Positions 2,730 to 32,677 of a stretch of DNA of 44,820 nt are shown here, in pieces (the first letter of the stretch is position 1; every line of letters begins with the position of its first letter). The notes under the pieces are model-generated. The model made no database searches, was not told the DNA's origin, and worked only from the letters and a program-made list of their open reading frames with translations. The translations under genes and the position numbers were made by a program. The DNA is taken from contig JAFUDC010000067.1 of NCBI GenBank assembly GCA_017459345.1, positions 1 to 44,820 of the forward strand. Reading direction: 5' to 3'. Source of the stretch: Eubacterium sp. GTDB lineage: Bacteria; Bacillota; Clostridia; Lachnospirales; Lachnospiraceae.

Positions 2730-3422
2730 TTACTGATTTCCGGATGGAAAGACCTTCTCCAGCTGCTCTAATTCCTTGAACTCCTGCACAGTGTTGATGT
2801 TGGTCACTTCGAGCTCATAATTGGATAAGGGTTCCAAATCTGCTGTCACATAATTCAATCCTTTTATGATCTGCATCAGCTTTTTTTGTCCATTGGCAGC
2901 GGCTTCCTCCAGGACAGGAAGGATGTTCCGGTGATAGAGGGCTGCCAGAGGATGGTAACCATCCCTTGCGCGGGGAATGATGGCATCGACTGTCTTCTCA
3001 AGGGAACGATCTGCCTGATCATTTTCGCCCGAATAAAGCCCCTTATTATTCTTTTCTGAGCGTCTCCTGCCTTCTTCCCACAGGTACGCATAGAGGTTTC
3101 GGGAGATAAAGGGCATGTCGCAGGCGCAGACAGCCACATATTCAGTAGTGCTCACACTGATTCCGCTGATCAGTCCGGCCAGGGGGCCTGCATCCTTTAT
3201 GGTGTCGTATACAAGAGTGCATTCCCCCGGGATATCCTTAACCTGCCCCGGCGTGGAGCAGGACAGAAAGATCTGACCCGATCCGTCTCCGATACCCTTT
3301 ATGATTCTGTCCAGGAATACTTCATCCCGGTAGGTCAGGCTGCCTTTAAAATGTCCGTGCATTCGGCTGTTCTTTCCTCCTGCCAGAATGATTGCATCGA
3401 TAATATTTCCCGCTATATTCAT
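2730..3422 (-). CDS. mobA: Molybdenum cofactor guanylyltransferase MobA
   Basis: A 230-residue nucleotidyltransferase that would attach GMP to molybdopterin to give the guanine dinucleotide cofactor used by DMSO-reductase-family enzymes. The N-terminal signature is IILAGGKNSRM, followed by a conserved Lys (HFKGSL). AGPLAGLISGI and the metal-binding CACDMPF motif are in the expected places. The usual RMGxDK is altered to RMHGHFKG, so the loop is slightly atypical. The ATG overlaps the stop of the upstream VWA gene by four bases (ATGA), showing translational coupling. It is the last gene of a minus-strand operon divergent from a Mo/W-pterin oxidoreductase, the obvious client. Confidence 0.87.
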   Translation of the reverse strand: MNIAGNIIDAIILAGGKNSRMHGHFKGSLTYRDEVFLDRIIKGIGDGSGQIFLSCSTPGQVKDIPGECTLVYDTIKDAGPLAGLISGISVSTTEYVAVCACDMPFISRNLYAYLWEEGRRRSEKNNKGLYSGENDQADRSLEKTVDAIIPRARDGYHPLAALYHRNILPVLEEAAANGQKKLMQIIKGLNYVTADLEPLSNYELEVTNINTVQEFKELEQLEKVFPSGNQ

Positions 3423-4684
3423 ATCTGATAACCTCTTCCTTCTCTTTTCAGATTCTCACCAGTCACATAGATAACCCGGCCATTCTTCGGATGAATCTCC
3501 TTCTCCCCGAAAATGATCCAGGTGATTGGCAGCAGCTGGTCCGGGATATCACCATCTCCGTCGGTAAAGATGATCCGGTTATCAATTCGCCTGCTGAAGG
3601 CAGCTGCCGCCACTGCAAAGTCAGTGCCGCCCCGGCCTGTCACCGGAAACTCTTTCAGGTCTTTTAATGTATGGATCTCGTGAAATCCATAGAATTCCGT
3701 GTCAAAGCAGCCAATCCTTACCCGGGAAAAACTGAGAATCCACCGGCACTCTTCCAGAAATGTCCGCAAAAAAGCTTCCTCAATGGATCCGCTGGTATCT
3801 AACAGAATCTCTGTATCGAGGATAGTCATCTCCTCCAGTCCGGACCGGATGATGCCATCCTCGATGACCGCATTGCGGTCAGACCAGTCCAGCTCCGGGC
3901 AGACGGTATCACGTAATATCCTGCGCCAGTCTATAAGGGGCTTCCTTGGTTTGGCCCTTATGATATCAACCTGCTCTGCCCTGCTGCTGTCACCCACACC
4001 GGCCGCAGTATGGGTCAGGGAATCAATCAGATCCCGGATATCATCCTCCACCAGCTCCTGATTTGACTCAAAGGCCTCAGGCTCGCTGTTATAGGAAGTA
4101 TTCCCGCCGGCTTCCATATATTCCGGCAGTATATCTTTGAGGAGCTCTTTTCCTGAGACAGGCTCCTGCATTGGAAGGTCAGACAGGGCTTCCTGACCGG
4201 TATTCTGATCCCAATCCGGGAATCCTTCAAAAGATTCATCTGCCTTATCATCATCGGCTTTAAGCGGGATGGGTATCTGAGCAGCCAGTTTCTCATAATA
4301 GGCTTCCGCAGGGTAATTCCTCGCCTCCAAATCACAGACAGCATCTTCCGGAATGGCCAGCCCCTCTTCATGAAGCCAGGCATTCACCACTGCCTCTGTG
4401 GCTTCCTGCCACAGCCCGGCATGCTTTCCCCTGCCCCGGTCCTGATGGCGGAAGGCCGCATGGCAGACCTGCCGCATGATATAGTAGAGCCGGAGGTCGG
4501 GATGCAGAGTTTCCATGAAGTCAGGGTTGTAGACCACGGTTTTCCCGTCGGTTGATATGTCCTTAACGGCATCTGATCCGGCATAATTCAGTTCGGCCAT
4601 CACTGTCCCGAAAAAGGGAAAGCGGGAAAGCAGCCGGCCCAGAATTCTCTGTAAATTGAATGGTTCTGTTATTTTCTGATTCAT
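3419..4684 (-). CDS. VWA-like protein (DUF2201 type)
   Basis: A 421-residue two-domain protein. The N-terminal ~130 residues resemble the metallopeptidase-like domain of the DUF2201 family, but the expected zinc-binding HExxH reads RQVCH, so the first His and Glu are gone and protease activity is unlikely. A Glu/Asp-rich linker follows. The C-terminal VWA domain keeps the MIDAS metal site: LLDTSGSI, the GRGGTDF threonine loop, and IFTDGDGD. VWA proteins of this kind partner with MoxR AAA+ ATPases as cofactor or complex assembly chaperones. It starts three bases after the AAA+ gene with no good Shine-Dalgarno, so translation is probably coupled. Its end overlaps mobA. The assembly role is inferred from context. 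Confidence 0.8.
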   Translation of the reverse strand: MNQKITEPFNLQRILGRLLSRFPFFGTVMAELNYAGSDAVKDISTDGKTVVYNPDFMETLHPDLRLYYIMRQVCHAAFRHQDRGRGKHAGLWQEATEAVVNAWLHEEGLAIPEDAVCDLEARNYPAEAYYEKLAAQIPIPLKADDDKADESFEGFPDWDQNTGQEALSDLPMQEPVSGKELLKDILPEYMEAGGNTSYNSEPEAFESNQELVEDDIRDLIDSLTHTAAGVGDSSRAEQVDIIRAKPRKPLIDWRRILRDTVCPELDWSDRNAVIEDGIIRSGLEEMTILDTEILLDTSGSIEEAFLRTFLEECRWILSFSRVRIGCFDTEFYGFHEIHTLKDLKEFPVTGRGGTDFAVAAAAFSRRIDNRIIFTDGDGDIPDQLLPITWIIFGEKEIHPKNGRVIYVTGENLKREGRGYQI

Positions 4685-4687
4685 TTT

Positions 4688-6679
4688 TTAATATACAGCC
4701 TTGCTTTCCAGTATCAGCCTGAGCCTTTTCTTGTCGCTGCCCGCCCAGAGTATATCAAAGAGGGCGGCATATTCAGCTCCAAGGAGACCGACAAAATGTC
4801 TGACCTCATCAAGGTCTTTCTCTTCTGCCTGCAGCATGGCTATTGCTGCAGCGTATTTTTCACTGACATCCATATCAAGATGATCCGGGTCATAATTATG
4901 GTTAAGAACATCATTTAAGGTTAGAACCTTTTTCCTGCAGAAGGCGATAAATTCTTCCGTGATTTCTTCTCCCACCAGGGATCGCAGCATATCCGGCCTG
5001 CCAGTATGATAGAGCATTCTGGAGGCCATCTCCCATTTCCTGGGGTCTGCGTTGGGCTTCTCCCCGTTGTAGGGGCTTCGCAGGGCTTCCTCCCCCTTAT
5101 AGGCAATAAAGGCATAGATTGCAGGATGGATTCCATGGTCGGCAGCCCAGGCCAGCCAGTCCGGTACCGTGGTATGGATGTATACATGGGCAAAGCGGTT
5201 AAAGAGAGGTTCTGCCAGAAGATTGGCAGCCAGGGAATCGGATATGTCATTGCCGGCGGCTACGATTCTGGCGTTTTCCGGGAGCCTCCAGATTCCGTTG
5301 ACTTCCCTGTTTAATACGATGTTGAATGCAATCCCCTGGATGGAGGGAAGGGCATTGGTAATCTCATCAAAAAAGACAATATGGAGCCGGTCCGGCTCGG
5401 CACTGCATTTGGCTTCTACCTTTTTAAGCCAGGCAGGGGGCACGTCGAACATTTCCCCTGTGGCCTGGTTGTAGACACTCTTTCCGTTAAGGCTTTCCGG
5501 CGTGGCATTCCTCAGGTAGATGATCTCACAGGTGGGATCAATCTGACAGACCCGGGCACTTTTTCCCTCGCTGGGTGCCCCATGGAGGAAGACGGCGATC
5601 CCGCTTTCTATGGCTCCCCGGATGATGTCTTCTTCCGTGGCAGGCCGATAATCAAATGTATGAGGATCCCTGCAGGTTTGCTTATTCTTAGCTGATGGAG
5701 CCTGGGGAAGCCGGATATTCCGTAAGATTTCAGACTGCATGCTGCCGGTGACGAATCTGCCTATGCCTGTCTGTTCGATATTTCCAAAATACTGCATAGA
5801 GCCTTTGCAGCAGCGGATGCCGGCGGTGAGAATCTTCTCTGAGATCATATTCTGCCCGCCCGACAGGGCAATCCACCAGACTGGTTCAACCCGGACCCAG
5901 ATACGGGAATCTTTACGGTAATGGAGGATAGATTGCAGAAAATCAGGAAGATGGATATGGTTTCCCGGCAGGTCCATGAGGATAAATCGGCCTTCTTTAC
6001 AGCCATATTCCTCGTAAGATATGTATTCCGTCTCCCGGGATACTGGCTCTCCGGTTTGTATCTTGGCAGTCTCGTTCACTATGAACTGTGTTTTAGCAGA
6101 CCCGGTTCCCCCGGGCTGTGTTGTTCCTGCTTGTTTTTCTTCCCCAGGAAGAGTCCAGAACCTTCCGGTCCGGGTCAGCCCGGATGAGGCAAGCAGCTGG
6201 TCCAGGTGCCGTTGGAGACGGATATCCGGTACTGATTGCGGATATTCCCCCAGTTTCAGCCGCTTTTCCGATGGATGATCATAGTGAGTGTCAGGATCCG
6301 ACGCAGAGTGAATGCCGCCGTCCTGCTCCATGATCAGCAGGGGACGGATTCCGATGTCTTTTCTGGCCCGGAAAACAGATACGCTGCTGCCGTCAGTAAG
6401 GAGACCCATGGGGTTGCCTGATCCATCCGGAGTGGAAGAGTAGCAGATTCCCTTGGGACTGCCTGATTTATTCAGGCTGGCCGTATCGTTTCTTCCCTGG
6501 CCCGAACCTGCCGGCCTTCCTCTTTGGCTCGAACCTTCCTGGCCCGAACCTGCCGGGGAGGCTGAAGCAGAGGCATATATAATAGCGCCGGTAAGAAGGG
6601 CAAGGTCTGTGAGCCCGCCGTCTTCTTTCGGAGAGATGGTCTGGTTTTGTTCCGGTATTGTTAATCTTAATTCATTCAT
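4688..6679 (-). CDS. MoxR-like AAA+ ATPase with long N-terminal extension
   Basis: A 663-residue ATPase, longer than ordinary MoxR proteins because of a ~340-residue N-terminal extension. Residues ~40-65 hold a low-complexity Gly/Ser/Arg segment with a repeated PAGSGQ motif. The AAA+ core has Walker A GAPSEGKS at residues 367-374, a Walker B ending IVFFDEITNA, and a sensor-like VAAGND; the C-terminal part is helical. Known MoxR/VWA pairs such as CoxD/CoxE mature metal cofactors, and the following VWA and mobA genes plus the divergent pterin enzyme suggest the same job here. The start codon lies only about two bases after the transcription start predicted from a perfect promoter, so the mRNA may be leaderless. 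Confidence 0.85.
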   Translation of the reverse strand: MNELRLTIPEQNQTISPKEDGGLTDLALLTGAIIYASASASPAGSGQEGSSQRGRPAGSGQGRNDTASLNKSGSPKGICYSSTPDGSGNPMGLLTDGSSVSVFRARKDIGIRPLLIMEQDGGIHSASDPDTHYDHPSEKRLKLGEYPQSVPDIRLQRHLDQLLASSGLTRTGRFWTLPGEEKQAGTTQPGGTGSAKTQFIVNETAKIQTGEPVSRETEYISYEEYGCKEGRFILMDLPGNHIHLPDFLQSILHYRKDSRIWVRVEPVWWIALSGGQNMISEKILTAGIRCCKGSMQYFGNIEQTGIGRFVTGSMQSEILRNIRLPQAPSAKNKQTCRDPHTFDYRPATEEDIIRGAIESGIAVFLHGAPSEGKSARVCQIDPTCEIIYLRNATPESLNGKSVYNQATGEMFDVPPAWLKKVEAKCSAEPDRLHIVFFDEITNALPSIQGIAFNIVLNREVNGIWRLPENARIVAAGNDISDSLAANLLAEPLFNRFAHVYIHTTVPDWLAWAADHGIHPAIYAFIAYKGEEALRSPYNGEKPNADPRKWEMASRMLYHTGRPDMLRSLVGEEITEEFIAFCRKKVLTLNDVLNHNYDPDHLDMDVSEKYAAAIAMLQAEEKDLDEVRHFVGLLGAEYAALFDILWAGSDKKRLRLILESKAVY

Positions 6680-7004
6680 AATCCAACATTATATGGATAA
6701 ATGTAAGTCATGTCAAGAATCGGCACTTCTTTTTTTAGGGCTCAGAGCCACTGTTTATGCGGATATCAGACTGATTTTGCAGGGCCTTTGCTACATAATC
6801 GGTATCCTGTCTGCAGGCGGGTGGACATTTTCTTAAAATTGTCCACAATATATAGGCGAGTACAATAAGTATGTCCATGATTTTATACATTTTTCATAAA
6901 ATGAGTGAGTATTGACTAATTTTTATTGTAAATGTTATATATAGTATAATGGTAATTTATTAACAAACATTAACTAATATACAAATCAGAAAAGGAGGAG
7001 TTTT
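6680..7004. promoter_or_regulatory. Divergent intergenic control region
   Basis: Space between the AAA+ operon (-) and the oxidoreductase operon (+). Besides the minus promoter it holds a hairpin or operator-like dyad GTGGACA...TGTCCAC at 6821-6846, a small GGCTC/GAGCC dyad near 6739-6749, and AT-rich plus-strand promoter candidates: TTGACT at 6912-6917 with TATATA at 6936-6941 (spacer 18), or TATAAT at 6945-6950. AAAGGAGG at 6991-6998 is the ribosome binding site of the next gene. I could not match it to a molybdenum cofactor riboswitch. Confidence 0.6.
6688..6716 (-). promoter_or_regulatory. Consensus promoter of the AAA+/VWA/mobA operon
   Basis: On the minus strand TTGACA (6716-6711), a 17-base spacer and TATAAT (6693-6688) match the sigma-A consensus exactly. 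The expected start site is near 6681, next to the ATG at 6679. No Shine-Dalgarno fits in between. Confidence 0.8.
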
Positions 7005-9245
7005 ATGGGTGAATGGAAAACATCCGTCTGTACCGTCTGTGTGCAGGAATGCGGCATGAAGATGTACGTTGAAGATGGAAAAGTGCTTAAGGTTAAGCAT
7101 GACGATGACAATCCCAGATCCAGGGGCCATCTCTGCCGTAAAGGACGTAACTTCGTGAATATGCTCTACAGTGAGGACCGGATCAAGTATCCCATGAAGA
7201 AGGTGGATGGTGAGTTTGTCCGCATTTCCTGGGATCAGGCTATCAAGGAAATTGCTGAGAAGCTGCAGGCTATCCTGGATAAGTACGGACCCAGAGCCTA
7301 CTCAGCCTTCGGCGGATCCCATTTCTCCGATGGTTACTCCGGCGTCATGCTCAACATGTTTAATGCCCTGATCGGCTGCCAGAATTATTTCTGCTCCCTT
7401 TCTGCAGAGCTGACCGGAATCTTCTGGAGTACCGGCAAGATGCTGGGAAGCCAGTCCTTCTGGCCTCATCCGGATATGCATCATGCGGACGTGCTCTGCT
7501 GCTGCGGCTGGAACCCCATGCAGTCCAATCAGATTGAGAACGGCAAGCGGGTGATCTACGAATTTGCCAAGAATCCGGACAAGAAGCTTATTGTCATTGA
7601 CCCCAAGAAGAGTGAGACGGCCAAGATGGCTGACATCCATCTGCAGATCCGTCCCGGTGCGGATGCTCTTCTTTGGCGTGCCCTGCTGGCCATCGTCATG
7701 AAAGAGGGCTGGTATGACAAGGAATATATCGAAGAAAATGTAGCGGACTTTGATAAACTGTGGAAATGGGTGGATGATCTGGATATCAGAAAGGCCATCG
7801 AAGTCTGCGACCTGGATTATGATGATGTCTATAAGGTTGCCGATATTATGGCCCATGAGAAATCCACCATACATAAGGAGCTGGGTATCATCTGCGGCAG
7901 GCATACTACCCTGACCACCCACCTGATGCATGTCTTCTCTGCCATTACCGGAAGGATCGCCGTACCCGGCGGCATCACCTGGGGTGTGCTGGCAGGATTC
8001 CTCCTGGCCCACACGGATAACCCGGAAACAGACTGGAGACTGCCGGAAACCGATTACCGGCTGATCACCGGCATGTTCCCGACAGCAGCCTTTGCAGATG
8101 AGGTCTTAAGTGACAAACCAGACCGGATCCGCGCCCAGATTTCAGGAACCGGCAACCCGGTAAGGTCCATCGTTGACACACCCAAGGTTACAGCAGCCTA
8201 TGAGGCCCTGGAACTTCTGGTTCACTACGATGTCCAGTGGAATGAGACGGCAAGGCTGGCTGATTACGTGCTTCCCTGTACTGTTACACCGGAAATGTAC
8301 GGATATTCCGCCCTCTTTAACCTTTTCCCGGATGTCTATGTTACCGTCCATCCTCCCATTGTGGAGCCCTATGGGGAAGCCATCGAACCCATGGACTTCT
8401 GGGCCCGCCTCATGAAGGAGATGAACCTGGTTCCGCCGATTCCGCAGGAGATCTACGACCTGGCAAAGACCAGCCGCATGGATTGGGTCGATGCTGTCTA
8501 TAAGTACATTGGAGAAAATCCGGCACTGGCACCTCTTGCCCCCCTGATCGTCACCTTCAGTCTTGGGGAAGCCCTGGAATCCTACTCCCTGGGTATGGCT
8601 TATGCCGGCTATATGTTCTGCGATGATATCGTAAAGAATGCCTTTGAGCGGGCCGGCTATCCCAAGGGACCCTATCAGGCAGAGATGATATTCAGAGAAG
8701 CCCTCAAACATCCGGAGGGATTCTACGCAGGACAGGTTACATTTGAAGAGCTGCGTGCTTCCATCTGTACACCGGACGGAAAGATCCACTGCCACATCGA
8801 CGAGCTGGATGACTGGGTAGCAGAGCTGACTCCGGAGAGGGAAGATGCCCTTATGACAGATAAGGACTATCCATTCATCTTAAAGCCCGGCAAGCACTTT
8901 GACGGTACCTACAACTTTGCCATGAGAGACCGGAGATGGAACCGGGGTAAGAATGTCTATACAGCAGATATTTCTATGGAAGATGCGGAGATTATGGGTA
9001 TCAAAGAAGGAGATATGCTGGAAGTATTTAACCGCAAGGGCTCCATCACTGCTCCCGCCCATATCGACCCGGATATGAAGAAGGGAACCGTCTGCGTTCC
9101 TCAGGGTACCAGACTGCCGGTAGGCGGACTGAAAGAAGAGGGCAATACCAACCTTCTGACAGACGACCAGTTCCGTGACCGTATTGCCGGGACCCCATTC
9201 CATAGCTATGTACCATGTAACATCCGCATTGCAAGGGAGGGATAG
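7005..9245 (+). CDS. Molybdopterin (Mo/W) oxidoreductase, DMSO reductase family
   Basis: A 746-residue catalytic subunit. An N-terminal [4Fe-4S] site is formed by C9, C12, C16 and C44. Pterin-binding regions follow, and a dinucleotide-binding domain occupies about 620-746 (NRKGSITAPAHI, VPQGTRLPVGG). It resembles formate dehydrogenase alpha subunits in order and length. However, the loop that should supply the Mo ligand reads NYFCSLSAELTG around residues 127-138, without the Cys/Sec-His-Gly-Pro of formate dehydrogenases, so the catalytic His is not evident. There is no in-frame TGA for selenocysteine. The substrate is therefore open: a formate dehydrogenase variant, or another Mo/W enzyme. 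It heads an operon with NAD-linked flavin and iron-sulfur subunits; the next gene starts two bases after its stop. Confidence 0.85.
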   Translation: MGEWKTSVCTVCVQECGMKMYVEDGKVLKVKHDDDNPRSRGHLCRKGRNFVNMLYSEDRIKYPMKKVDGEFVRISWDQAIKEIAEKLQAILDKYGPRAYSAFGGSHFSDGYSGVMLNMFNALIGCQNYFCSLSAELTGIFWSTGKMLGSQSFWPHPDMHHADVLCCCGWNPMQSNQIENGKRVIYEFAKNPDKKLIVIDPKKSETAKMADIHLQIRPGADALLWRALLAIVMKEGWYDKEYIEENVADFDKLWKWVDDLDIRKAIEVCDLDYDDVYKVADIMAHEKSTIHKELGIICGRHTTLTTHLMHVFSAITGRIAVPGGITWGVLAGFLLAHTDNPETDWRLPETDYRLITGMFPTAAFADEVLSDKPDRIRAQISGTGNPVRSIVDTPKVTAAYEALELLVHYDVQWNETARLADYVLPCTVTPEMYGYSALFNLFPDVYVTVHPPIVEPYGEAIEPMDFWARLMKEMNLVPPIPQEIYDLAKTSRMDWVDAVYKYIGENPALAPLAPLIVTFSLGEALESYSLGMAYAGYMFCDDIVKNAFERAGYPKGPYQAEMIFREALKHPEGFYAGQVTFEELRASICTPDGKIHCHIDELDDWVAELTPEREDALMTDKDYPFILKPGKHFDGTYNFAMRDRRWNRGKNVYTADISMEDAEIMGIKEGDMLEVFNRKGSITAPAHIDPDMKKGTVCVPQGTRLPVGGLKEEGNTNLLTDDQFRDRIAGTPFHSYVPCNIRIAREG

Positions 9246-9247
9246 AG

Positions 9248-9694
9248 ATGGAAAAAATCATGAATAAGATCAAAGAGATCCGTGAGAATGAGGGATCTAT
9301 GCTGGATGCCTTCATGGCAGTTCAGGCCGAGCTTGGATATCTGGCACCGGAGGCCATCACCGCCATCGCCGGTATCTATGACACAACCGAAGCCCAGGTC
9401 TATGAGACAGCAAGCTTTTATTCCTACCTCTATCTGGAACCGGTAGGAAAGCATGTCATCCGTGTATGCCGTTCTGCCCCCTGCTGTGCCGCAGGAGCCC
9501 TTGAGGTGACAGAGATGATCGGCCGCAGGCTGGGGATCGGAATCGGGGAGACCACCGAGGACGGGCTTTTTACCCTGATCGAGGGAGAGTGTGTCGGACA
9601 GTGTGCCAAGGCCCCTGTCATTACCGTGGACAGGAAGGTATATGGCCCCCTGACAGAAGAACTGTTGGAAGAGATTATCGGTCAGTATTGTTAG
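9248..9694 (+). CDS. NuoE/HydC-like [2Fe-2S] subunit
   Basis: A 148-residue thioredoxin-fold ferredoxin subunit of NAD(P)H-linked complexes. Helical N-terminus, then the four cluster cysteines as CRSAPC and, about 36 residues later, CVGQC. It would exchange electrons with the FMN site of the next subunit. GGGAGGG at 9234-9240, seven bases before ATG 9248, lies in the end of the oxidoreductase gene, so the two are tightly coupled. Length and motif spacing are normal for the family, but the sequence cannot tell a bifurcating complex from a simple NADH-coupled one. Confidence 0.9.
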   Translation: MEKIMNKIKEIRENEGSMLDAFMAVQAELGYLAPEAITAIAGIYDTTEAQVYETASFYSYLYLEPVGKHVIRVCRSAPCCAAGALEVTEMIGRRLGIGIGETTEDGLFTLIEGECVGQCAKAPVITVDRKVYGPLTEELLEEIIGQYC

Positions 9695-9709: not shown

Positions 9710-10930
9710 ATGAAAGAAATGAGAGTTGCCCTCCGCAATGCGGGCAAGATTGATCCGCATAGCATTGAGGAATATATAAATGCAGGTGGATATGAGGCAC
9801 TTAAGAAGGCCAGAGAGATTCCACAGGATGAGCTGATAGAGCAGTTTGAGAAATCCGGACTCCTCCGCGGACGTGGAGGAGCGGGCTTTAACACAGGTTT
9901 TAAGTGGCGGTCAGCAAAACAGGTGGACAGTGACATCAAGTATGTTGTCTGTAACGCTGATGAGGGTGAGCCAGGTACCTACAAAGACCGTACCATCCTG
10001 GAAAATGACCCCCACACCGTCCTTGAAGGTATGGCCATCTGTGCCTATGCCATCGGAGCAAACAGGGCTATCGTCTACTGCCGTGCAGAGTATCCCTTCG
10101 TGATCGACCTGCTCAAAGAGGCTGTAGCCCAGGGCGAAGAGAAGGGCATTTACGGCGACCTTAAGTTCACTATCATGACCGGCGCCGGTGCCTATGTCTG
10201 TGGTGAGGAGACCGCATTGCTCAACTCCATCGAGGGTAAGAGAGGCGAAGCCCGCCTGAAACCTCCTTACCCTACGGTCAAGGGCCTTTACGGCAAGCCA
10301 ACCGTTGTCAATAACGTAGAGACATTTGCCGCTGTAGCCACGATTGTCAATAACGGACCCGTCTGGTACAGCTCCATCGGAGCCATCCGCTATCCGGGTA
10401 CCAAGGTATTTACCGTGAGCGGTGATATCGCTGAGAAGGGCTGGTGTGAGGTTTATACCGGTTCTAAATTATCGGAGATTCTCGACCATTTCGGAGGCGT
10501 CCGCCCCGGCCATCAGCTGAAAGCCGTTCAGATCGGCGGAAACTCCGGAGCTTTTGTGACACCGGACCAGATTGATACCAGGATTGATATCGAGTCTCTT
10601 TCTGAGCTGGGTCTGGCTCTGGGCTCCGGTTCCCTCTTCGTGATTGATGAGACCAGGGATATGGCCGAGATCCTGGTGGAAGTGGTTGCCTTTTTCGCAG
10701 CAGAATCCTGTGGTAAATGTACTCCCTGCCGTGAGGGTACTGTGAGAATTCTGGACCTTCTTACAGCCATCCGTGACGGGGAGGGTCAGGAGAAGGACCT
10801 TGTCACCATCGAAAAGATCTGTAAGAACATGCAGGTTGGAAGCTTCTGTCCTCTGGGTCAGTCGGTAGCTGTACCGGTGATGAGCGCCCTCACGAATTAC
10901 CGTCAGGACTTCTTAAATCGTATTCAGTAA
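9710..10930 (+). CDS. NuoF/HydB-like FMN and NAD(P)-binding subunit
   Basis: A 406-residue flavoprotein. GRGGAGFNTGFKW is the NADH-site glycine loop, and CNADEGEPGTYKDR is the FMN-binding motif. An SLBB-like beta domain follows, and the C-terminal [4Fe-4S] site is ESCGKCTPCREG plus a later Cys in GSFCPLGQS. Bifurcating HydB proteins often carry an extra N-terminal [2Fe-2S] domain and C-terminal ferredoxin domains; this one has neither and matches the compact NuoF form. It would transfer electrons between NAD(P)(H) and the iron-sulfur chain of the neighbouring subunits. It sits 15 bases after the NuoE-like gene with GGAGG in the gap. Confidence 0.93.
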   Translation: MKEMRVALRNAGKIDPHSIEEYINAGGYEALKKAREIPQDELIEQFEKSGLLRGRGGAGFNTGFKWRSAKQVDSDIKYVVCNADEGEPGTYKDRTILENDPHTVLEGMAICAYAIGANRAIVYCRAEYPFVIDLLKEAVAQGEEKGIYGDLKFTIMTGAGAYVCGEETALLNSIEGKRGEARLKPPYPTVKGLYGKPTVVNNVETFAAVATIVNNGPVWYSSIGAIRYPGTKVFTVSGDIAEKGWCEVYTGSKLSEILDHFGGVRPGHQLKAVQIGGNSGAFVTPDQIDTRIDIESLSELGLALGSGSLFVIDETRDMAEILVEVVAFFAAESCGKCTPCREGTVRILDLLTAIRDGEGQEKDLVTIEKICKNMQVGSFCPLGQSVAVPVMSALTNYRQDFLNRIQ

Positions 10931-10945
10931 GAGAGGAGGAATAAC

Positions 10946-12412
10946 ATGCCAAAAATTAATCTTGTGATTGACTCTCAGCAAGTAAGTGCGGAGGCTGGTT
11001 CCTCCATCCTTGAAGCAGCCAGAGGAGCCGGAATCCACATCCCTACTCTGTGCTATATCAAAGAACAGGATCCCAAAGCCAACTGCCGGATCTGCCTGGT
11101 AGAGGTGGAAGGACGCCGGGGGCTTCTGCCTTCCTGCGCCACACAGGTTTCTCCCGGTATGGTTGTAAAAACCAATACACCGGCTGTACGCGATGCCAGA
11201 AAGATGAATCTGGAGCTTCTGATCTCCAATCATCCCATGGATTGCCAGCATTGTGCCAGAAATGGTGCCTGTGATGTCAACGAGCTGTCCGATGAAATGT
11301 GCAAATACTGTATTATCTGTGACTGTACCAAAGATGGCGCCTGTGAGCTCCAGACCCTGGCCAGAGAGTATAATGCAGCCACGGGCGACTTTGACTGGAA
11401 GGAACGCACAGAGCCTTTGGATGACTCCACCCATGTCATCGTAAAGGATCCCAACAAATGTATCTTATGTACCCGCTGTGTGGCAGCCTGCAACGACCAG
11501 CAGGGCATCCATGTATGGAGCCGGACCGGCAGAGGTGCCGGCAGCAAGATCCTGCCGGCCATGAACCGGCCTCTGGCTGAAAGCGCCTGTGTCCGCTGCG
11601 GCCTCTGTGTAAAGGAATGTCCCACCGCTGCCCTCACCATGGCTCAGGATCACAGGGATATCTTCCATTATCTGGATAACAAGAAGTTATACAAGATTGC
11701 CAGGATCGAACCGTCCTTTATTGCTGAACTTTCCACCCTCTCCGGATTTGATGATCTGGATCTGACCCCGGCCCTCATGGTTTCCGCCCTTAATAAGCTG
11801 GGCGTAAACGAGATTGAACCGGCAGTCACAGCAGAGAAGCAGGCGGCAGAAGAGATTAAGGCAGAGCTTGCAGCTGCAGATGGCAAGCCACTCATTATCC
11901 GCGACAGCCAGCCTGTTGTCCGCATGATGAAAGCCCGCTATCCGGAGCTTGCTGATTACTTCAGCAAAGCAGGATCCGGCCAGGAAACCTTCTTTAAGAC
12001 CAGCACGGCCCGGGATATGGAAAAAGAAGTGTACCCCATTACATTTACTTCTTCCATCGGAAGAAAGGATGAGGCCAGGGAAGGAGGCTTCGGGCCTGAG
12101 AAAGCCAAGGTACTTACTCCCTTGGAAATCAAGCACCTCTTTAAGCGCAGCGCCATCGAGCTTCAGGTAAGAAGACCGGATGAAAACTATGGTCCCGACC
12201 TTAGCACCGATGACCTGCTCCCGGCAGCTGCCGGCATAATCGAAGACCAGATCACCGTTGACGGGAAGACCGTCAAGGTTCTGATTGCCCAGGGACTTCG
12301 TGACGTAGATACTGTCCTCCGCAAGCTGAAGGAGGGAAGCTGCGATTATGATCTCCTGCAGCTTGAGGCAGTGCCCGGTGAGGCAGTGGATATCCGCAGG
12401 ATGCTGGTATAA
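10946..12412 (+). CDS. HydA/NuoG-like Fe-S subunit with cysteine-less hydrogenase domain
   Basis: A 488-residue electron-transfer subunit. In order: a [2Fe-2S] domain (C36, C47, C50, C64), a His-Cys [4Fe-4S] site (H96 with CQHC and a further Cys), an extra Cys-rich stretch CKYCIICDC, and two [4Fe-4S] motifs CILCTRC and CVRCGLC near residues 172 and 215. Residues ~235-488 follow the [FeFe]-hydrogenase large domain, including the RYPELADYF segment, but all three H-cluster motifs have lost cysteine: RDSQPVV (319-325) for TSCCPGW, TFTSSIGRK (from 366) for MPCTAKK, AVPGEAV (475-481) for ACPGGC. The region between motifs 2 and 3 is shortened. It cannot hold an H-cluster and probably acts as scaffold and wire between the pterin enzyme and the flavin subunit. 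The hydrogenase alignment is mine, from memory of the family. Confidence 0.88.
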   Translation: MPKINLVIDSQQVSAEAGSSILEAARGAGIHIPTLCYIKEQDPKANCRICLVEVEGRRGLLPSCATQVSPGMVVKTNTPAVRDARKMNLELLISNHPMDCQHCARNGACDVNELSDEMCKYCIICDCTKDGACELQTLAREYNAATGDFDWKERTEPLDDSTHVIVKDPNKCILCTRCVAACNDQQGIHVWSRTGRGAGSKILPAMNRPLAESACVRCGLCVKECPTAALTMAQDHRDIFHYLDNKKLYKIARIEPSFIAELSTLSGFDDLDLTPALMVSALNKLGVNEIEPAVTAEKQAAEEIKAELAAADGKPLIIRDSQPVVRMMKARYPELADYFSKAGSGQETFFKTSTARDMEKEVYPITFTSSIGRKDEAREGGFGPEKAKVLTPLEIKHLFKRSAIELQVRRPDENYGPDLSTDDLLPAAAGIIEDQITVDGKTVKVLIAQGLRDVDTVLRKLKEGSCDYDLLQLEAVPGEAVDIRRMLV

Positions 12413-12690: not shown

Positions 12691-13281
12691 ATGAAGGCAA
12701 AAAGCAACACAATTCGCGATAAAATCGCAGATACAGCCATGCATCTGTTTAAAAGCAAGGGATATGGTATCAGTATCTCTGAAATCTGCGAGAAGGCAGG
12801 GGTAACCCGGTCCTCCTTCTATAATCAATTCTCCTCTAAGGATGATATCCTGTCTTATCTGATGGAAAGCGCCAATGATCTTTCCAGAAATTCCTTTGAT
12901 GATTTTGTTTATGCAGATAATGATTTTGAGAGATTGTGGATGCTGGTGGATAACCGTCTAAAGATCATCGAGGACTATAAACCTGAACTGGGCAAGGCTA
13001 TCTTTAAACTGGAGCTTGAGAGAGATCTGGGAATCATATCCCTTACTGAGCCCTTGAGGATTCGGATAAAGAAGCTGTACAAAAACTGTATCCTGCAGGG
13101 AATAGCGGAATGCTCCTATGACCCTGACCTTGTGATTGACTACGGGGAGAGGATGACCAACGGTATAATCTTCGAATGGGTCAGATCCGGAGGAGCTTTT
13201 GATTTAAGAGCAGAATCAAGACGGGTAAACGAAATGATGCTGGGCCTTAAGAAGGAGTACCGGAAGATGTTGAGAGCCTGA
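12691..13281 (+). CDS. TetR/AcrR family transcriptional regulator
   Basis: A 196-residue regulator. The N-terminal DNA-binding domain is typical: ADTAMHLFKSKGYG, then the helix-turn-helix ISISEICEKAGVTRSSFYNQFSSKDDIL in two conserved pieces. The C-terminal helical domain, which would bind a ligand, is not recognisable to me by subfamily. ATG 12691 follows AGGTGATGAG. It has its own strong promoter and lies after the oxidoreductase operon in the same direction, so it could regulate that operon or itself, but no palindromic operator links them clearly. A large bidirectional hairpin separates it from the convergent telA. Confidence 0.88.
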   Translation: MKAKSNTIRDKIADTAMHLFKSKGYGISISEICEKAGVTRSSFYNQFSSKDDILSYLMESANDLSRNSFDDFVYADNDFERLWMLVDNRLKIIEDYKPELGKAIFKLELERDLGIISLTEPLRIRIKKLYKNCILQGIAECSYDPDLVIDYGERMTNGIIFEWVRSGGAFDLRAESRRVNEMMLGLKKEYRKMLRA

Positions 13282-16676: not shown

Positions 16677-16846
16677 ATCAGGAGTATGTGAATAACTGTA
16701 GAGAAAGCTCAATATGGTTGTCTTTTTTTTCATTTTCTTTTATACTTATATTAATATCAAGTGATATCTGTTTTTTCGACCTACAAGCAAGTTATCGAAT
16801 GGTGTTTTTATCTCTGACAAAGATTTTTACTGACTTCAGTCGTGAG

Positions 16847-16866
16847 AAGAAGGCCTGAGCCTTCTT
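16847..16866 (+). other. Hairpin just before the HAD-fusion gene
   Basis: AAGAAGGC pairs with GCCTTCTT around CTGA. It ends seven bases before AGGAG (16873-16877), the ribosome binding site of the next gene. No T run, so it may be a leader structure rather than a terminator. Confidence 0.5.
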
Positions 16867-16883
16867 ACAATCAGGAGCAAAAC

Positions 16884-18464
16884 ATGAGAAAACATATTTT
16901 ATTTGATCTGGACGGAACCCTTACTGACCCTATGGTGGGAATCACCTCCTCGGTTCAGTATGCCCTGTCCAGGTTCGGCATAGAAGTTAAATATCTGAAG
17001 GAACTGATTCCTTTTATCGGGCCGCCCCTTACCGAGTCTTTTGAGAAATATTATGGCTTGAGCCACGACCAGGCGCTCAGGGCGGTGGATTATTACCGGG
17101 AGTATTTTTCTCCCACGGGAATCTATGAGAATGAGATATATCCGGGTGTCCGGGAGATGCTTGAGAGGCTGTCTGATGCGGGCTATCAGCTCTACCTTGC
17201 CTCCTCCAAGCCGACGGTTTATGTTGAGAGGATTCTCAAATACTTTGATATAGAAGGATTTTTTGATTATGTCGGCGGCAGTGAGCTGGATGGAACCCGG
17301 GTCCAGAAGCAGGATGTGGTTGCCCATGTACTCTGGAAGTGCGGTATTCCGGCTGCCGATGCCATCATGGTGGGGGACCGCCGCCATGATGTCGAGGGGG
17401 CCAGGGCCTGCGGGGTTTTGTCCGTGGGAGTTCTCTTTGGCTATGGGTCTGAGGATGAGCTTAAGAAGGCCGGGGCCAGCCATATCGTGGCTTCCGTGAA
17501 GGAGCTTGAGACATTTCTGCTGGAGCAGGATGAGGTGAAGGAGGACCAGAGCGTGATTAGATTCGGAATCATTGGAACAGACAGATGTGGGGAGGATTTC
17601 TTCCGGGCCAACCGCTTCAGCCATGGCTTTGAACTGACAGCAGTCTATGATCCGGACATGGAGCAGGCCAAGGCTTTCGGATTTCGAAAAGGACCTCTGG
17701 AATTCTTTGATCAGTTGGATGAGTTCGCCAATTACGAGCAGCTGGATGCAGTTTTTGTCTCCGGTCCGCCGGAGAACCGCTATGAACAGATCCGGACCAT
17801 GCTCCAGGCGGGCAGGCATGTCCTGGCTGAGATGCCCCTGGCCTTAAAGGAGCAGGATGCAAAAGAATTATTTGCTCTGGCTGAGGAGAAGGAAGTGATT
17901 CTCATGGAGGCGGTTTTCCCTGTCTACGCCCCTTCCTTTGAGAAGATGATTCAGTACCTGGGGTCTCTTGGGGAGGTCAGGCAGGCTGTATTCCAGTTGT
18001 GCAGGCATTTGCCGGAGCATGACAGAAAGCGGGCGGCCCTCTTTTCCACAGCCATCCTTCCTGTCTCCTGCATGATCCGTCTTTTTGGGGAGCCTGACCG
18101 GGTGACCGGGGCAGGAGTCCTGCTTGAGGATGAGATAGATGGAGCCGGAACCATTCTGATGGAGTACAAGGACTTGACCGGTACGGTCATCTACTCCCAG
18201 ATGGCTGATGCAGCGGTGCCCAGCCAGATCCAGGGGGAGGATGCCTCCATGCTGATCCGGGAGATTGACAGCATAAAGGATCTGAGGATCTTCCGCAGGA
18301 CCGTGGACCAGACGGTACATTTTGAACAGTCGGATAATATCATGCAGTATGGTACCAGAGAGTTTATGAAGATTGTCCGGACCGGACTTGGCTGGGAGGA
18401 GGCCAGGGACAGGACACTGGCTGCCCTTCGGGTGCTGGAGCAAGCTGGCCGGCAGATTATGTGA
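16884..18464 (+). CDS. HAD phosphatase fused to degenerate Gfo/Idh/MocA-like domain
   Basis: A 526-residue fusion. Residues 1-~215 form a complete HAD hydrolase of the phosphoglycolate phosphatase type: DLDGT (8-12), the serine motif LASSKP, a Lys in the third motif, and GDRRHD near 165. From ~222 a Gfo/Idh/MocA dehydrogenase fold begins (IRFGIIGT...), but its functional residues are changed: the NAD loop GTGxxG reads GTDRCG, the catalytic EKP reads EMP (316-318), and the usual LLDIG reads ILPVS. The second domain is therefore probably not a dehydrogenase and may regulate or bind. ATG 16884 is chosen over 16842 because AGGAG lies six bases before it. A gap of 34 bases leads to the sigma-like gene, so they may be cotranscribed. 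Confidence 0.88.
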   Translation: MRKHILFDLDGTLTDPMVGITSSVQYALSRFGIEVKYLKELIPFIGPPLTESFEKYYGLSHDQALRAVDYYREYFSPTGIYENEIYPGVREMLERLSDAGYQLYLASSKPTVYVERILKYFDIEGFFDYVGGSELDGTRVQKQDVVAHVLWKCGIPAADAIMVGDRRHDVEGARACGVLSVGVLFGYGSEDELKKAGASHIVASVKELETFLLEQDEVKEDQSVIRFGIIGTDRCGEDFFRANRFSHGFELTAVYDPDMEQAKAFGFRKGPLEFFDQLDEFANYEQLDAVFVSGPPENRYEQIRTMLQAGRHVLAEMPLALKEQDAKELFALAEEKEVILMEAVFPVYAPSFEKMIQYLGSLGEVRQAVFQLCRHLPEHDRKRAALFSTAILPVSCMIRLFGEPDRVTGAGVLLEDEIDGAGTILMEYKDLTGTVIYSQMADAAVPSQIQGEDASMLIREIDSIKDLRIFRRTVDQTVHFEQSDNIMQYGTREFMKIVRTGLGWEEARDRTLAALRVLEQAGRQIM

Positions 18465-18498
18465 AAAAAATCGACAGATAAATCAGGAGGGACATGAG

Positions 18499-19278
18499 AT
18501 GACGGGACAAAACGATTTTCTGGAAGCGGTCAGGGAGTTGGAAAGACTGGCCAGGGCCAGCAAAAACCACTTATCCATGAAAGAGATAGAGAACTATTTT
18601 TCTGAGATGCAGCTGGCTGAAGCCCAGCTTGAGTATATCTGCAGATATCTGGAATCCCATGATATCATGATAGAGGGTCATGTGAGAAGGGGAGACGTGG
18701 ACGAATTACCAGAGGAGCCTCAGGAGATGAAGGAGGATCCTCTGGATGAGGAGATGGTTCAGATTTACCGGGAGGAGACATCCCGGGCGGCCGGGCTTAG
18801 CAGGGACCAGGAAGAACAGCTGGTTTACAAACTGATCAGCGGGGATGAGAATGCCAGAAACCTTCTGATTGAGGCTAATCTGGGCCTGGCTATGGAACTG
18901 GCCAGAGAGTATAAGGGGCAGGGGCTTCATTACAGTGACCTGATTCAGGAAAGCAACATAGGACTGATGCTGGCCATCAACAGCTATGATCCGGGGATTG
19001 ACGGTCCCTTTGATCTCTATAAGGAGCAGATGATCCGCAAACAGATCACGGAGGCCCTTGATGAGTACAGTCACTCTACCCGGTCGGCCCGGAAGATGGC
19101 CAGCAGGGTTAATGAGCTCAACCGGATTGCCACTGCATTTGCCAGGGAGTATGAGAGGGAGGCAAAGCCTGCTGAGCTTGCAAGGCGGATGGGAATCACC
19201 GAGGAGGAGGTCCGGGAGCTCATGAAGATTTCCCTGGATGCCATTGCCGTCCTGGACCAGGGCAAGATCGGCCGGTGA
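18499..19278 (+). CDS. RpoD-like sigma-70 paralogue lacking region 4
   Basis: A 259-residue protein that follows RpoD from the start. The first ~60 residues match the region 1.1-like N-terminus of both full sigma factors in this window, then comes an acidic linker, a weak region 1.2, and region 2 (ARNLLIEANLGLAMELARE, YSDLIQESNIGLMLAINSYD). The promoter-melting and -10 segment is altered: the [12 protein letters not shown] of true RpoD reads LYKEQMIRKQITE, losing the aromatic pair. Region 3 is visible, and the protein ends before region 4, so -35 recognition is impossible. It may bind core RNA polymerase as a modulator, or be decaying. AGGAGGG at 18485-18491 sets ATG 18499. It lies directly upstream of dnaG and rpoD. 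Confidence 0.82.
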   Translation: MTGQNDFLEAVRELERLARASKNHLSMKEIENYFSEMQLAEAQLEYICRYLESHDIMIEGHVRRGDVDELPEEPQEMKEDPLDEEMVQIYREETSRAAGLSRDQEEQLVYKLISGDENARNLLIEANLGLAMELAREYKGQGLHYSDLIQESNIGLMLAINSYDPGIDGPFDLYKEQMIRKQITEALDEYSHSTRSARKMASRVNELNRIATAFAREYEREAKPAELARRMGITEEEVRELMKISLDAIAVLDQGKIGR

Positions 19279-21180: not shown

Positions 21181-21274
21181 GTAACTTAAGCTTTCCATAC
21201 CAATGTCAATTCATATGGGAAATTTAAGCAACTAATCTGTGTCAGTATCATTCCACTCAGCAGGAGGCATTAAT

Positions 21275-22363
21275 TTGGACAGGGAAAGAGGCCTATTCAG
21301 TGATCAGATCAGTCGTCTTATTCAGATAGCCGAAAAGAATCATAATGTGCTGGAGCTTTCGGATATCGAGAGCGTCTTTCAGGATATCCTCCTGTCCCCT
21401 GCACAGATGGAGCGGGTGATTTCCATCCTGGAGAAGGAGAAGATTGACATCCTCATGATCACGGAAGATCAGAATGAGGAGGACCAGACTGATTTTGACG
21501 AGGCTGAGACTGACCGCCTTATGGAGGCGGAGCCTGTATCCACGGAGGATCCGGTCCGCATGTACTTAAGAGAGATCGGCAGGATTCCCCTTCTGACTGC
21601 TGAGGAGGAAGTTGCCCTGGCCAGGCGTATCCGGCAGGGGGATAAGAGTGCTTACCGGCAGCTGGCTGAGGCCAATCTTCGTCTAACTGTAAGCATTGCC
21701 AAAAAATATGTGGGGAGGGGGATGTCCTTTCTGGATCTGATCCAGGAGGGGAATCTTGGACTGATCCGGGCAGTGGAGAAGTTTGACTACAGGAAGGGAT
21801 ACAAGTTCTCCACCTACGCCACCTGGTGGATCCGCCAGGCCATCACCCGGGCCATCGCAGACCAGGCAAGAACCATACGGATTCCCGTCCATATGGTGGA
21901 AACCATCAACCGGGTGAAGCGGGCCAAACGCCTGCTGACGCAGAAGTATGGAAGAGAGCCAACCCTTGCTGAGCTTGCTGCCGATCTGGAACTGCCGGAG
22001 GAAAGGATTGCGGAGATCAGCAGGCTTTCCCTGGAACCGGTTTCCCTGGAGACCCCTGTGGGGGATGAGGAGGATACCCATCTGTCCGATTTTATCAGTG
22101 ATGATAAACAGCCGGTTCCCGTGGATGAGGCGGCCAACCGGATCTTAAGGGACCAGCTTGAGGAGGTCATGGATACTCTTTCCCAGAGGGAGCAGAAGGT
22201 TTTGTCCCTCCGCTTCGGTCTGGAGGATGGCAAACCCCGGACCCTGGAGGAGGTTGGGCGGGAGTTTCATGTGACCAGGGAGCGGATCCGGCAGATTGAG
22301 GCCAAGGCCCTGAGGAAGCTGAGGCATCCCACCAGGAGTAAGAAGCTTAGGGATTTTCTATAG
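21275..22363 (+). CDS. rpoD: RNA polymerase sigma-70 factor RpoD (dnaG-linked copy)
   Basis: A 362-residue full-length primary-type sigma factor. Region 1.2 ([21 protein letters not shown]), region 2 ([17 protein letters not shown]), region 3 and region 4 with its helix-turn-helix ([27 protein letters not shown]) are intact. The start is probably TTG 21275: AGGAGG at 21262-21267 is seven bases before it, and the resulting N-terminus lines up with the second RpoD; the frame also allows GTG 21239. Position after dnaG is the classic one for the housekeeping sigma. A second complete RpoD lies at 31577, so which is the main factor cannot be told from sequence. Confidence 0.93.
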
Positions 22364-31265: not shown

Positions 31266-31576
31266 CAATCGGTTTTCGCTTTTTAGACAATACTGTGAAA
31301 ATGTATTATGGATTTACCTGTCGATTTTCTGAGATAATTATTGACAGGTGACGAATCTGCGAGTATAATGTATTAGATATATTGTCTGTTATGACAGATG
31401 ATGTAACTTTATAGCTATAGTGAGATAAAGGAAGGGTAAGTGCATAGGATACATACCCTTCCTTGTGTGCCTAATGGATATGCGATAGAAGAATCAGCAA
31501 TCCTAAGCAGATATAGGTGCACACGACTCGACTGATATTGATGACAAAGGATAATTTGGAATCGGGAGAACATAGG
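31266..31576 (+). promoter_or_regulatory. rpoD leader region: consensus promoter and long-stem hairpin
   Basis: TTGACA (31341-31346), 17 bases, TATAAT (31364-31369) is an exact sigma-A promoter about 200 bases before the second rpoD. The leader contains an 11-bp perfect stem (31428-31438 with 31454-31464, 15-base loop) lacking a T run. No reading frame of note is in it. The leader length suggests post-transcriptional control, but I recognise no known riboswitch. Confidence 0.75.
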
Positions 31577-32677
31577 ATGGAAGATGAAAGATTAAGATTT
31601 TCTAATTTGATGGAAACACTGCTTAAGCAGGCACATCAGAATAAGAATGTACTGGAGTACAAGGATATCAACGATGTCTTTAAAGACGTTGAGCTTACTC
31701 CGGAAAAGTTTGAATGGATTCTGGATTATTTTGAGAAGCAGGGAGTCGATGTACTTAACACTTCTGAAGCAGATGACGAGGATGACTTCATCGATGACGA
31801 TGTGGAGGAAGTGGAGATCATTGATGACACGGATATTCTTGAGGGCGTGAGCCTTGAGGATCCGGTCCGTATGTACTTAAAGGAGATTGGCAATATACCC
31901 CTTCTTACGGCAGAGGAAGAAGTCTTCCTGGCCCAGAGGATCGAGAAGGGGGACGAGCAGGCCAGGAAGCAGCTGATTGAAGCCAACTTAAGGCTGGTCG
32001 TCAGCATAGCCAAGAAGTATGTAGGCCGGGGAATGTCTTTCCTTGATCTGATCCAGGAAGGCAATATGGGTCTGATGAAGGCTGTTGAGAAGTTTGATTA
32101 TAAGAAGGGGAACAAGTTTTCCACTTATTCCACCTGGTGGATCCGTCAGGCAATCACCCGGGGAATCGCGGACACGGCAAAGACCATCCGGGTTCCGGTA
32201 CATATGGTGGAGACCATCAACAAGACTCTTCGTACTTCCAGGATGCTTCTTCAGGAGCTGGGCAGAGAGCCCACCAACGATGAGATTGCCAAAAAGATGA
32301 ATATGCCGGTGTCCAAGATTGACGAGATCTTAAAGACCTCCAAGGATCCGGTATCCCTGGATACTCCCATCGGGGAGGAGGAAGACAGCCAGCTGGGCGA
32401 CTTTATCGAGGACGAGTCCCTTCTTTCTCCGGTTGATTCCGCCTCCTTCTCCATGCTGAAGGAGGAGCTCAACGAAGCCATGGAATCTCTGACAGAAAGA
32501 GAGCGCAATGTCATCAAGCTCCGCTTCGGGCTGGATGATGGCAAAACCAGAACCCTGGAGGAAGTCGGAAAGGAGTTCAACGTAACCAGAGAGCGTATTC
32601 GTCAGATTGAAGCGAAGGCACTTAGAAAGCTCCGCCATCCCAGCCGCAGCCGCAAGCTGAAGGATTTCCTGGAGTAA
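31577..32677 (+). CDS. rpoD: RNA polymerase sigma-70 factor RpoD (second copy)
   Basis: A 366-residue full-length primary-type sigma. The N-terminal region 1.1-like domain is followed by a very acidic linker (about 65-92), region 1.2 ([21 protein letters not shown]), region 2 ([17 protein letters not shown]), region 3, and region 4 with [30 protein letters not shown] 31577 is preferred over 31517 because GGGAG at 31564-31568 is eight bases upstream and the N-terminus then matches the dnaG-linked paralogue. It is monocistronic with a perfect consensus promoter and a hairpin terminator, as expected for a strongly expressed housekeeping gene. Confidence 0.95.

Follow-up and report, generated by a model that had tools for sequence, protein, structure and literature searches.

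The window analysed here, i.e. the whole stretch of 44,820 nucleotides, covers positions 1-44,820 of the forward strand of contig JAFUDC010000067.1 in the assembly GCA_017459345.1 of Eubacterium sp. (Lachnospiraceae). On one strand it holds four genes in the order Mo/W oxidoreductase, NuoE, NuoF and HydA-like, which lie 2, 15 and 15 bases apart and have purine-rich leaders. These genes, and the features lying within the last of them, are as follows.

7005..9245, + strand: Mo/W-bis-pyranopterin oxidoreductase subunit of 746 aa, presumed catalytic (PF00384, PF01568, PF04879)
9248..9694, + strand: NuoE-like [2Fe-2S] subunit of 148 aa (PF01257, E 7e-42; cysteines 74, 79, 80, 115 and 119)
9710..10930, + strand: NuoF-like FMN/NAD(H)/[4Fe-4S] subunit of 406 aa, of the non-bifurcating type (PF01512, PF10589)
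10946..12412, + strand: HydA-like subunit without H-cluster cysteines, 488 aa, ATG start (intact ORF, Pfam, PDB and alignment)
11264..11335, + strand: insert of 24 residues (107-130) with C119, C122, C125 and C127, candidate extra Fe-S cluster (alignment)
11438..11641, + strand: two-[4Fe-4S] ferredoxin-like domain, residues 165-232 (PF12838 and related models; all 8 of 8 cysteines present)
11696..12370, + strand: Fe_hyd_lg_C domain, residues 251-475, with the four conserved cysteines gone (PF02906, alignment)

The initial annotation had noted the close linkage of the HydA-like gene to NuoE, NuoF and a pterin oxidoreductase, and this holds in the window; moreover, the order Mo/W-NuoE-NuoF is also found in one genome of another genus. 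The four genes are similar in G+C content (0.52-0.54). A scan for promoters and terminators gives two weak promoter-like matches on the + strand at 6822-6866, upstream of the operon, and after the HydA-like gene a TetR-type gene lies at 12691. Divergent from the operon, on the minus strand at 3419-6679, there are two adjacent genes which by eye look like those of a MoxR-like AAA ATPase and a VWA-like protein.

In the N-terminal part of the HydA-like protein, Pfam detects a Fer2_4 2Fe-2S domain, the NADH-G 4Fe-4S region in two stretches and the two-cluster ferredoxin. For the C-terminal part, the framework of the hydrogenase large domain had been proposed at about residues 235-488, and our three comparisons agree on it. 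First, PF02906 (Fe_hyd_lg_C) matches residues 251-475 of the whole 488-aa protein with an E of 1.3e-19, and matches residues 235-488 alone with 2.2e-20, the sole further Pfam listing of this segment having an E of 0.15. Second, hhalign against ten motif-intact hydrogenases gives an E of 9.4e-13 over 243 columns. Third, the top PDB chain for the whole protein is 8a6t, the HydA1 of an electron-bifurcating hydrogenase (E 1.9e-56, aligned over residues 4-422 and 427-480), and residues 235-488 match two PDB chains below E 0.001, both of them hydrogenases, namely 8a6t (2.6e-11) and 7qv7 (1.8e-9), the latter being HydA2 of the hydrogen-dependent CO2 reductase. Among the 25 PDB sequences matched by this segment up to E 10 there is neither a NuoG chain nor a NiFe-HydA chain. 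The NuoG models have their best stretches on residues 3-117 of the protein, and TIGR01973, which matches in two stretches, has the better of them on 7-114. A better match to the C-terminal region of NuoG, by which the proposal might have fallen, did not occur among the Pfam matches, the best NCBIfam stretches or the PDB matches, and the NuoG C-terminal (molybdopterin-like) domain is rejected. Judged by these sequence homologies, the protein has a genuine Fe_hyd_lg_C domain at its C-terminal side. The best NCBIfam model for the protein is NF040763 with 306.6 bits, under its cut-off of 765 bits. As to membership among the [FeFe]-hydrogenases, the Fe_hyd_lg_C homology is present and the H-cluster cysteines of L1, L2 and L3 are absent in the sequence. 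The ancestor was the HydA of an [FeFe]-hydrogenase, probably an NADH-dependent one. In a HydA tree of 52 rows the smallest starred set with the HydA-like protein comprises 16 rows, in which the partners are for the most part non-bifurcating or unread; the branch of the HydA-like protein is very long (3.8), and its position in the tree is therefore unsure.

The loss of the hydrogen site was analysed with an alignment against 48 hydrogenase rows from the fetched loci, at least two of which repeat an ORF. The catalytic domain of the hydrogenases has four cysteine columns that are invariant in 48/48 rows, and in the HydA-like protein these columns read D320, S370, V476 and A480. The three segments RDSQPVV, TFTSSIGRK and AVPGEAV, which the initial annotation had quoted as cysteine-free counterparts of the H-cluster motifs, are indeed present with every one of the invariant cysteines replaced. 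The shortening which it described between motifs 2 and 3 is likewise seen, with 4, 11 and 24 columns missing (about 39 in total); 6 more are missing between motifs 1 and 2, and after motif 3 another 15 and 51 columns are lost and the C-terminal end is truncated. The N-terminal part has kept all the invariant Fe-S cysteine columns (15/15, against 0/4 in the H domain, relative to the 48 rows), and 20 of the 21 cysteines of the protein lie within residues 1-225. The same division appears when conservation in 95% or more of the 48 rows is taken as the measure: the N-terminal part retains 30 of its 32 such columns, the C-terminal part 13 of its 69. As the sequence reads, the H-cluster site is lost while the cysteines of the electron wire stay, and hydrogen production by the known mechanism is impossible for the HydA-like protein.

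Such a pattern may raise the idea of a decaying hydrogenase gene, whose C-terminal domain would be a remnant and whose product would work, if at all, through the N-terminal Fe-S part. The few conserved C-terminal columns left, the several deletions and the truncated end all fit decay, and so does the single copy found in our genome searches. However, the frame is open, and in tblastn searches with hydrogenases over the region and the downstream gap the matches in other frames reach only E 0.026 or worse, showing no sign of a frameshift; a frameshifted hydrogenase is ruled out on this ground. Besides, all conserved wire cysteines are kept and four more are present, the G+C content matches that of the operon partners, and the hydrogenase domain is still recognised with E 2e-20. 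Decay is on the whole an unlikely explanation. It is also conceivable that the emptied pocket binds another cofactor or substrate, the domain being still catalytic. The partly kept fold is in favour of this, as is C466, the sole cysteine left in the hydrogenase domain, although it is not at a conserved column; the old positions are free of cysteine and the stretch linking motif 2 to motif 3 is lost, and we hold a second life as a catalyst to be hardly probable at all.

The four additional cysteines lie in the insert at residues 107-130, whose columns hold more than five residues in none of the 48 hydrogenase rows. Pfam gives PF10588 as two stretches on the HydA-like protein. The sequence suggests that the insert cysteines may bind a gained Fe-S cluster. 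It is also observed that the insert motif CxxCxxCxC adjoins the His-Cys3 cluster site, and by eye it looks as if it partly repeated the CxxC...GAC motif next to it. The initial annotation had remarked neither on this insert nor on the absence from NuoF of the extra cluster domains of a bifurcating HydB.

We then turn to the type of the NAD(H) module. According to PMC9304861, the HydB subunits of bifurcating enzymes carry extra cluster domains, and residues near the NADH site, being A or E / M in bifurcating subunits, are described by Losey and co-workers as separating both types (PMC7311640, in part). The window NuoF has a tail of 63 residues without a ferredoxin motif, and its residues near the NADH site, EPGTYKDR, give T/K, the non-bifurcating pattern; of the marks of the Bfu family, the extra cluster domains (B2-B5) as well as A or E / M are absent from it. 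Most of the NuoF/HydB proteins readable upstream of HydA have a two-motif tail of about 133 residues, and a smaller set is without the motif. Among the 32 subunits with the two-motif tail, A/M is found in 28 and the residue pattern is unmatched in 4; among the 11 called non-bifurcating by the tail rule, there are 8 with T/K, 2 unmatched and 1 with A/M, the last being the long chain of L062, for which the non-bifurcating label is therefore doubtful. The bifurcating HydABC type is rejected on the tail without ferredoxin motifs together with the T/K residues. A quick tree built from 46 NuoF rows groups the window NuoF with the NuoF of locus L068 (SH-aLRT 99, 55% identity), and this pair is nested in a group of five with the NuoFs of the hydrogenase loci L038, L039 and L043 (SH-aLRT 99), whose neighbouring hydrogenases are intact; both rows of the pair are flagged as long branches, so the grouping is given moderate weight. 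The initial annotation had likened the operon to a trimeric HydABC complex with its hydrogen site retired and a Mo/W catalytic subunit in its place. This stands as regards the ancestry, the loss of the H-cluster and the linkage, but not as regards the NAD(H) module, which is not of the bifurcating HydABC type, so the analogy is only partly right.

The Mo/W subunit carries the N-terminal [4Fe-4S] cysteines C9, C12, C16 and C44, which are invariant in 9 aligned members. On the formate dehydrogenase alpha model TIGR01591 it scores 244.5 bits, far under the cut-off of 666.25, and a standard formate dehydrogenase is rejected on this score. The catalytic residue of formate dehydrogenases is paired with C130 (Cys of 7bkb), with E135 (Sec of 9t1s), with A134 (7qv7) or with a gap (FdhH, 1aa6), the alignments disagreeing among themselves. 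In acetylene hydratase 2e7z the residue aligned with E135 is a Cys, which we take to be the tungsten ligand. E135 and W141 are invariant in 9/9 aligned Mo/W members and lie near the ligand position of related enzymes; C130 is not conserved, being Ser or Asn in 8/8 of the other aligned relatives. Elsewhere in the same genome we find a fused formate dehydrogenase of 829.9 bits, above the cut-off, with an adjoining FdhD family gene, as well as three further PF00384 proteins and another HydA, which has intact motifs and stands beside a HydB of the bifurcating type on a contig beginning inside hydB. Since the genome has its own formate dehydrogenase and an intact HydA elsewhere, neither job needs the window operon, and the substrate of its Mo/W subunit is more probably one other than formate. 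On the contig of the fused enzyme (C105, L084:4512-9895), the order is a glutamate-synthase small-subunit-family oxidoreductase, the fused NuoG-type formate dehydrogenase and then the FdhD family gene, and the first of them has a NuoF-like cluster segment near its start.

From both subunits, one can judge whether the operon might encode an electron-bifurcating formate dehydrogenase of the HylABC type, which would also use ferredoxin. For Clostridium acidurici, HylA is described as a HydA homologue that lacks L1-L3 and has a formate dehydrogenase as its separate partner (PMC6085437), and C130 aligns with the catalytic-site cysteine of the formate dehydrogenase 7bkb. But the two-motif tail is missing from the window NuoF, whose T/K stands at the positions of A or E / M in bifurcating subunits; the Mo/W subunit scores far under the formate dehydrogenase cut-off, and C130 is replaced by Ser or Asn in the eight aligned relatives, so that an enzyme of this type would be very unlikely here.

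For the distribution of the genes, the HydA-like protein was searched against 99 relatives (E 1e-30), 24 genomes of the genus and 397 of the family (both 1e-50), 398 of the phylum (1e-55) and 321 of the class (1e-56), at most three candidates per genome being scored in the family and phylum searches and at most four in the class search; the genome sets overlap one another, and the window's own genome is in all of them. Within those E limits, below which more diverged copies would be missed, a second cysteine-less HydA copy was not found, and the best score apart from the window protein is 217.7 bits, in the phylum search. The search of the 99 relatives gave 42 match rows, and motifs were read in the 20 loci delivered from these, including that of the window. 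Taking the other hydrogenase-like loci together, the L1 motif is present in 43/43, and the L2 pattern went unmatched in two loci, as did the L3 pattern; despite these failures, each aligned hydrogenase row has its cysteine columns filled. With a single copy found, selection on the cysteine-less subunit cannot be measured. The search of genome contigs with the HydA-like protein gave one locus only, a complex I NuoG, and that of viral contigs with an alignment as query gave no match. Among the best 15 of its 339 plasmid matches, the annotated ones are hydrogenase, formate dehydrogenase or 2Fe-2S protein and some are unannotated; L077, the only one whose motifs were read, has the L1 motif. For the Mo/W subunit, the best 10 of 1261 plasmid matches all have at most 30.1% identity.

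Searches with the Mo/W subunit were made at E 1e-100 in 398 genomes of the phylum and 299 of the family, with two to three candidates scored. In the phylum, full-length relatives with 35-41% identity are identified in 7 further genomes of the 398, and no NuoE, NuoF or HydA-like gene is found in the fetched stretches around these seven, one of which, that of L061, ends with its contig 263 bases past the gene. In the family, the only matching genome besides the window's own, of the 299, is G272, which belongs to another genus. Its contig C4 (L068:104-4134) has Mo/W-NuoE-NuoF in the order of the window, with identities to the window proteins of 32% over the full length for Mo/W, 39% over 128 residues for NuoE and 55% for NuoF. 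The contig stops 11 bases past nuoF, which leaves a fourth gene unreadable. Two other HydA genes of G272 carry L1 and L3, and a fifth, weak match (E 8e-6) is in a frame without these motifs. The Mo/W gene is absent from all the five other genomes of that genus at E 1e-60.

The relatives having no NuoE or NuoF neighbours in the stretches read indicate that the catalytic subunit can have other partners, and this would fit an operon of two enzymes, one made up of NuoEF and the HydA-like protein and acting as an NAD(H)-ferredoxin diaphorase, the other a Mo/W enzyme of its own that is supplied by ferredoxin. On the other hand, the order Mo/W-NuoE-NuoF is repeated in another genus, the intergenic gaps are short, and the genome's own formate dehydrogenase fuses the same wire domain to a pterin domain. 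We think that such a division into two enzymes is quite improbable.

The explanation that we prefer, and regard as reasonably probable, is an NAD(H)-linked, non-bifurcating Mo/W oxidoreductase with a HydA-derived fourth subunit acting as wire and dock. We infer that all four proteins assemble into a single complex; the path and direction of electron flow in it are proposals likewise. Electrons would pass between NAD(H) and the FMN of NuoF and then the NuoF cluster; the way onward would lead through the N-terminal [2Fe-2S] and [4Fe-4S] clusters of the HydA-like subunit and then through its two ferredoxin clusters, and the last leg would run over the [4Fe-4S] cluster of the Mo/W subunit to the pterin metal. 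The emptied C-terminal hydrogenase fold may serve as a docking surface, bringing the ferredoxin clusters near the Mo/W subunit. Several findings count against this preferred explanation: the cysteine-less copy is one, with a very long branch; in G272 the fourth gene would lie beyond the contig end and the other two HydA genes have L1 and L3; and the seven other Mo/W relatives are without NuoE, NuoF or HydA-like neighbours in the stretches read. As a wider and rather doubtful proposal, possible but tentative, a separate line of NAD(H)-linked non-formate Mo/W enzymes may have recruited a hydrogenase subunit as a wire, retired its hydrogen site, gained an Fe-S cluster and used the empty fold as a dock, and the Mo/W site may use the invariant E135 where relatives have Cys, Sec or Ser.

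A comparison with known systems shows partial likenesses, and we found no description of the exact arrangement in the open-access literature. Nar1/NARF are eukaryotic relatives of the hydrogenases that lack the H-cluster and retain the cysteines of its [4Fe-4S] part; set beside this description, the window protein keeps none (0/4) of the conserved domain cysteines. The NADH-dependent [FeFe]-hydrogenases of group A6 (NF040763) are alike in the NuoE/NuoF type, the HydA architecture, the best NCBIfam model and the NuoF grouping, and the window protein differs from them by its missing H-cluster cysteines, shortened domain, extra-cysteine insert and Mo/W partner. Formate dehydrogenases that depend on NAD and carry a fused NuoG-like wire (6tg9 type, and the C105 protein of the window's genome) have the same wire domain beside a pterin domain, but they are one fused chain without a hydrogenase domain, and the C105 protein is above the cut-off.

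HylABC-FdhF2 of Clostridium acidurici resembles the window operon in having NuoE/NuoF-like subunits, a separate pterin subunit (PMC6085437, PMC5861303, PMC5736913) and, as Poudel and co-workers describe it for a bifurcating formate dehydrogenase (PMC6085437), the HydA homologue HylA without the L1-L3 motifs. It is bifurcating, its substrate is formate, HylB has two extra [4Fe-4S] domains (PMC5736913) and the A subunit has the clusters A1-A5 (PMC9304861). Unlike it, the window has a NuoF without those domains and a pterin subunit below the cut-off, HylA being compared by description only. In NiFe-HydABCSL of Acetomicrobium mobile, a HydA without the H-cluster also links another catalytic module to the NAD(H) module; there an A5 [4Fe-4S] cluster replaces the H-cluster and the enzyme bifurcates (consulted portions of PMC8880783; for the HydA without H-cluster also PMC9499530). 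The StnABC transhydrogenase has a NuoG-like subunit, StnC, which retains a catalytically inactive enzyme domain, the dead domain being FdhF-like there and hydrogenase-like in the window protein (PMC10482914, excerpts). No closer case appears in the portions consulted of PMC3519856, PMC6288185, PMC12771579 and PMC11574389.

With HylA, the NiFe-HydA and StnC as precedents, the principle is already known. What sets the window case apart is the combination of a recognisable hydrogenase domain without the conserved cysteines, a gained Cys insert, a non-bifurcating NuoEF and a pterin subunit under the formate dehydrogenase cut-off. The named precedents belong to bifurcating complexes and the window case stands on a non-bifurcating NAD(H) module. 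Here the catalytic domain of a hydrogenase has apparently taken on structural and electron-transfer duties for another kind of metal enzyme. It is also a warning for annotation, because the best NCBIfam model is a hydrogenase, yet the protein could not make hydrogen by the known mechanism. In a genome already equipped with formate dehydrogenase and hydrogenase genes of its own, the operon is the sign of an uncharacterised NAD(H)-linked Mo/W enzyme.

In addition, two features farther along the window were observed by eye. A single frame of 540 aa at 16842-18464 reads as an apparent fusion, with a HAD-type phosphatase first and a Gfo/Idh-type oxidoreductase after it. Three sigma-70-like genes lie within 15 kb, at 18373-19278, 21239-22363 and 31517-32677, two of them being RpoD-like and one more divergent.
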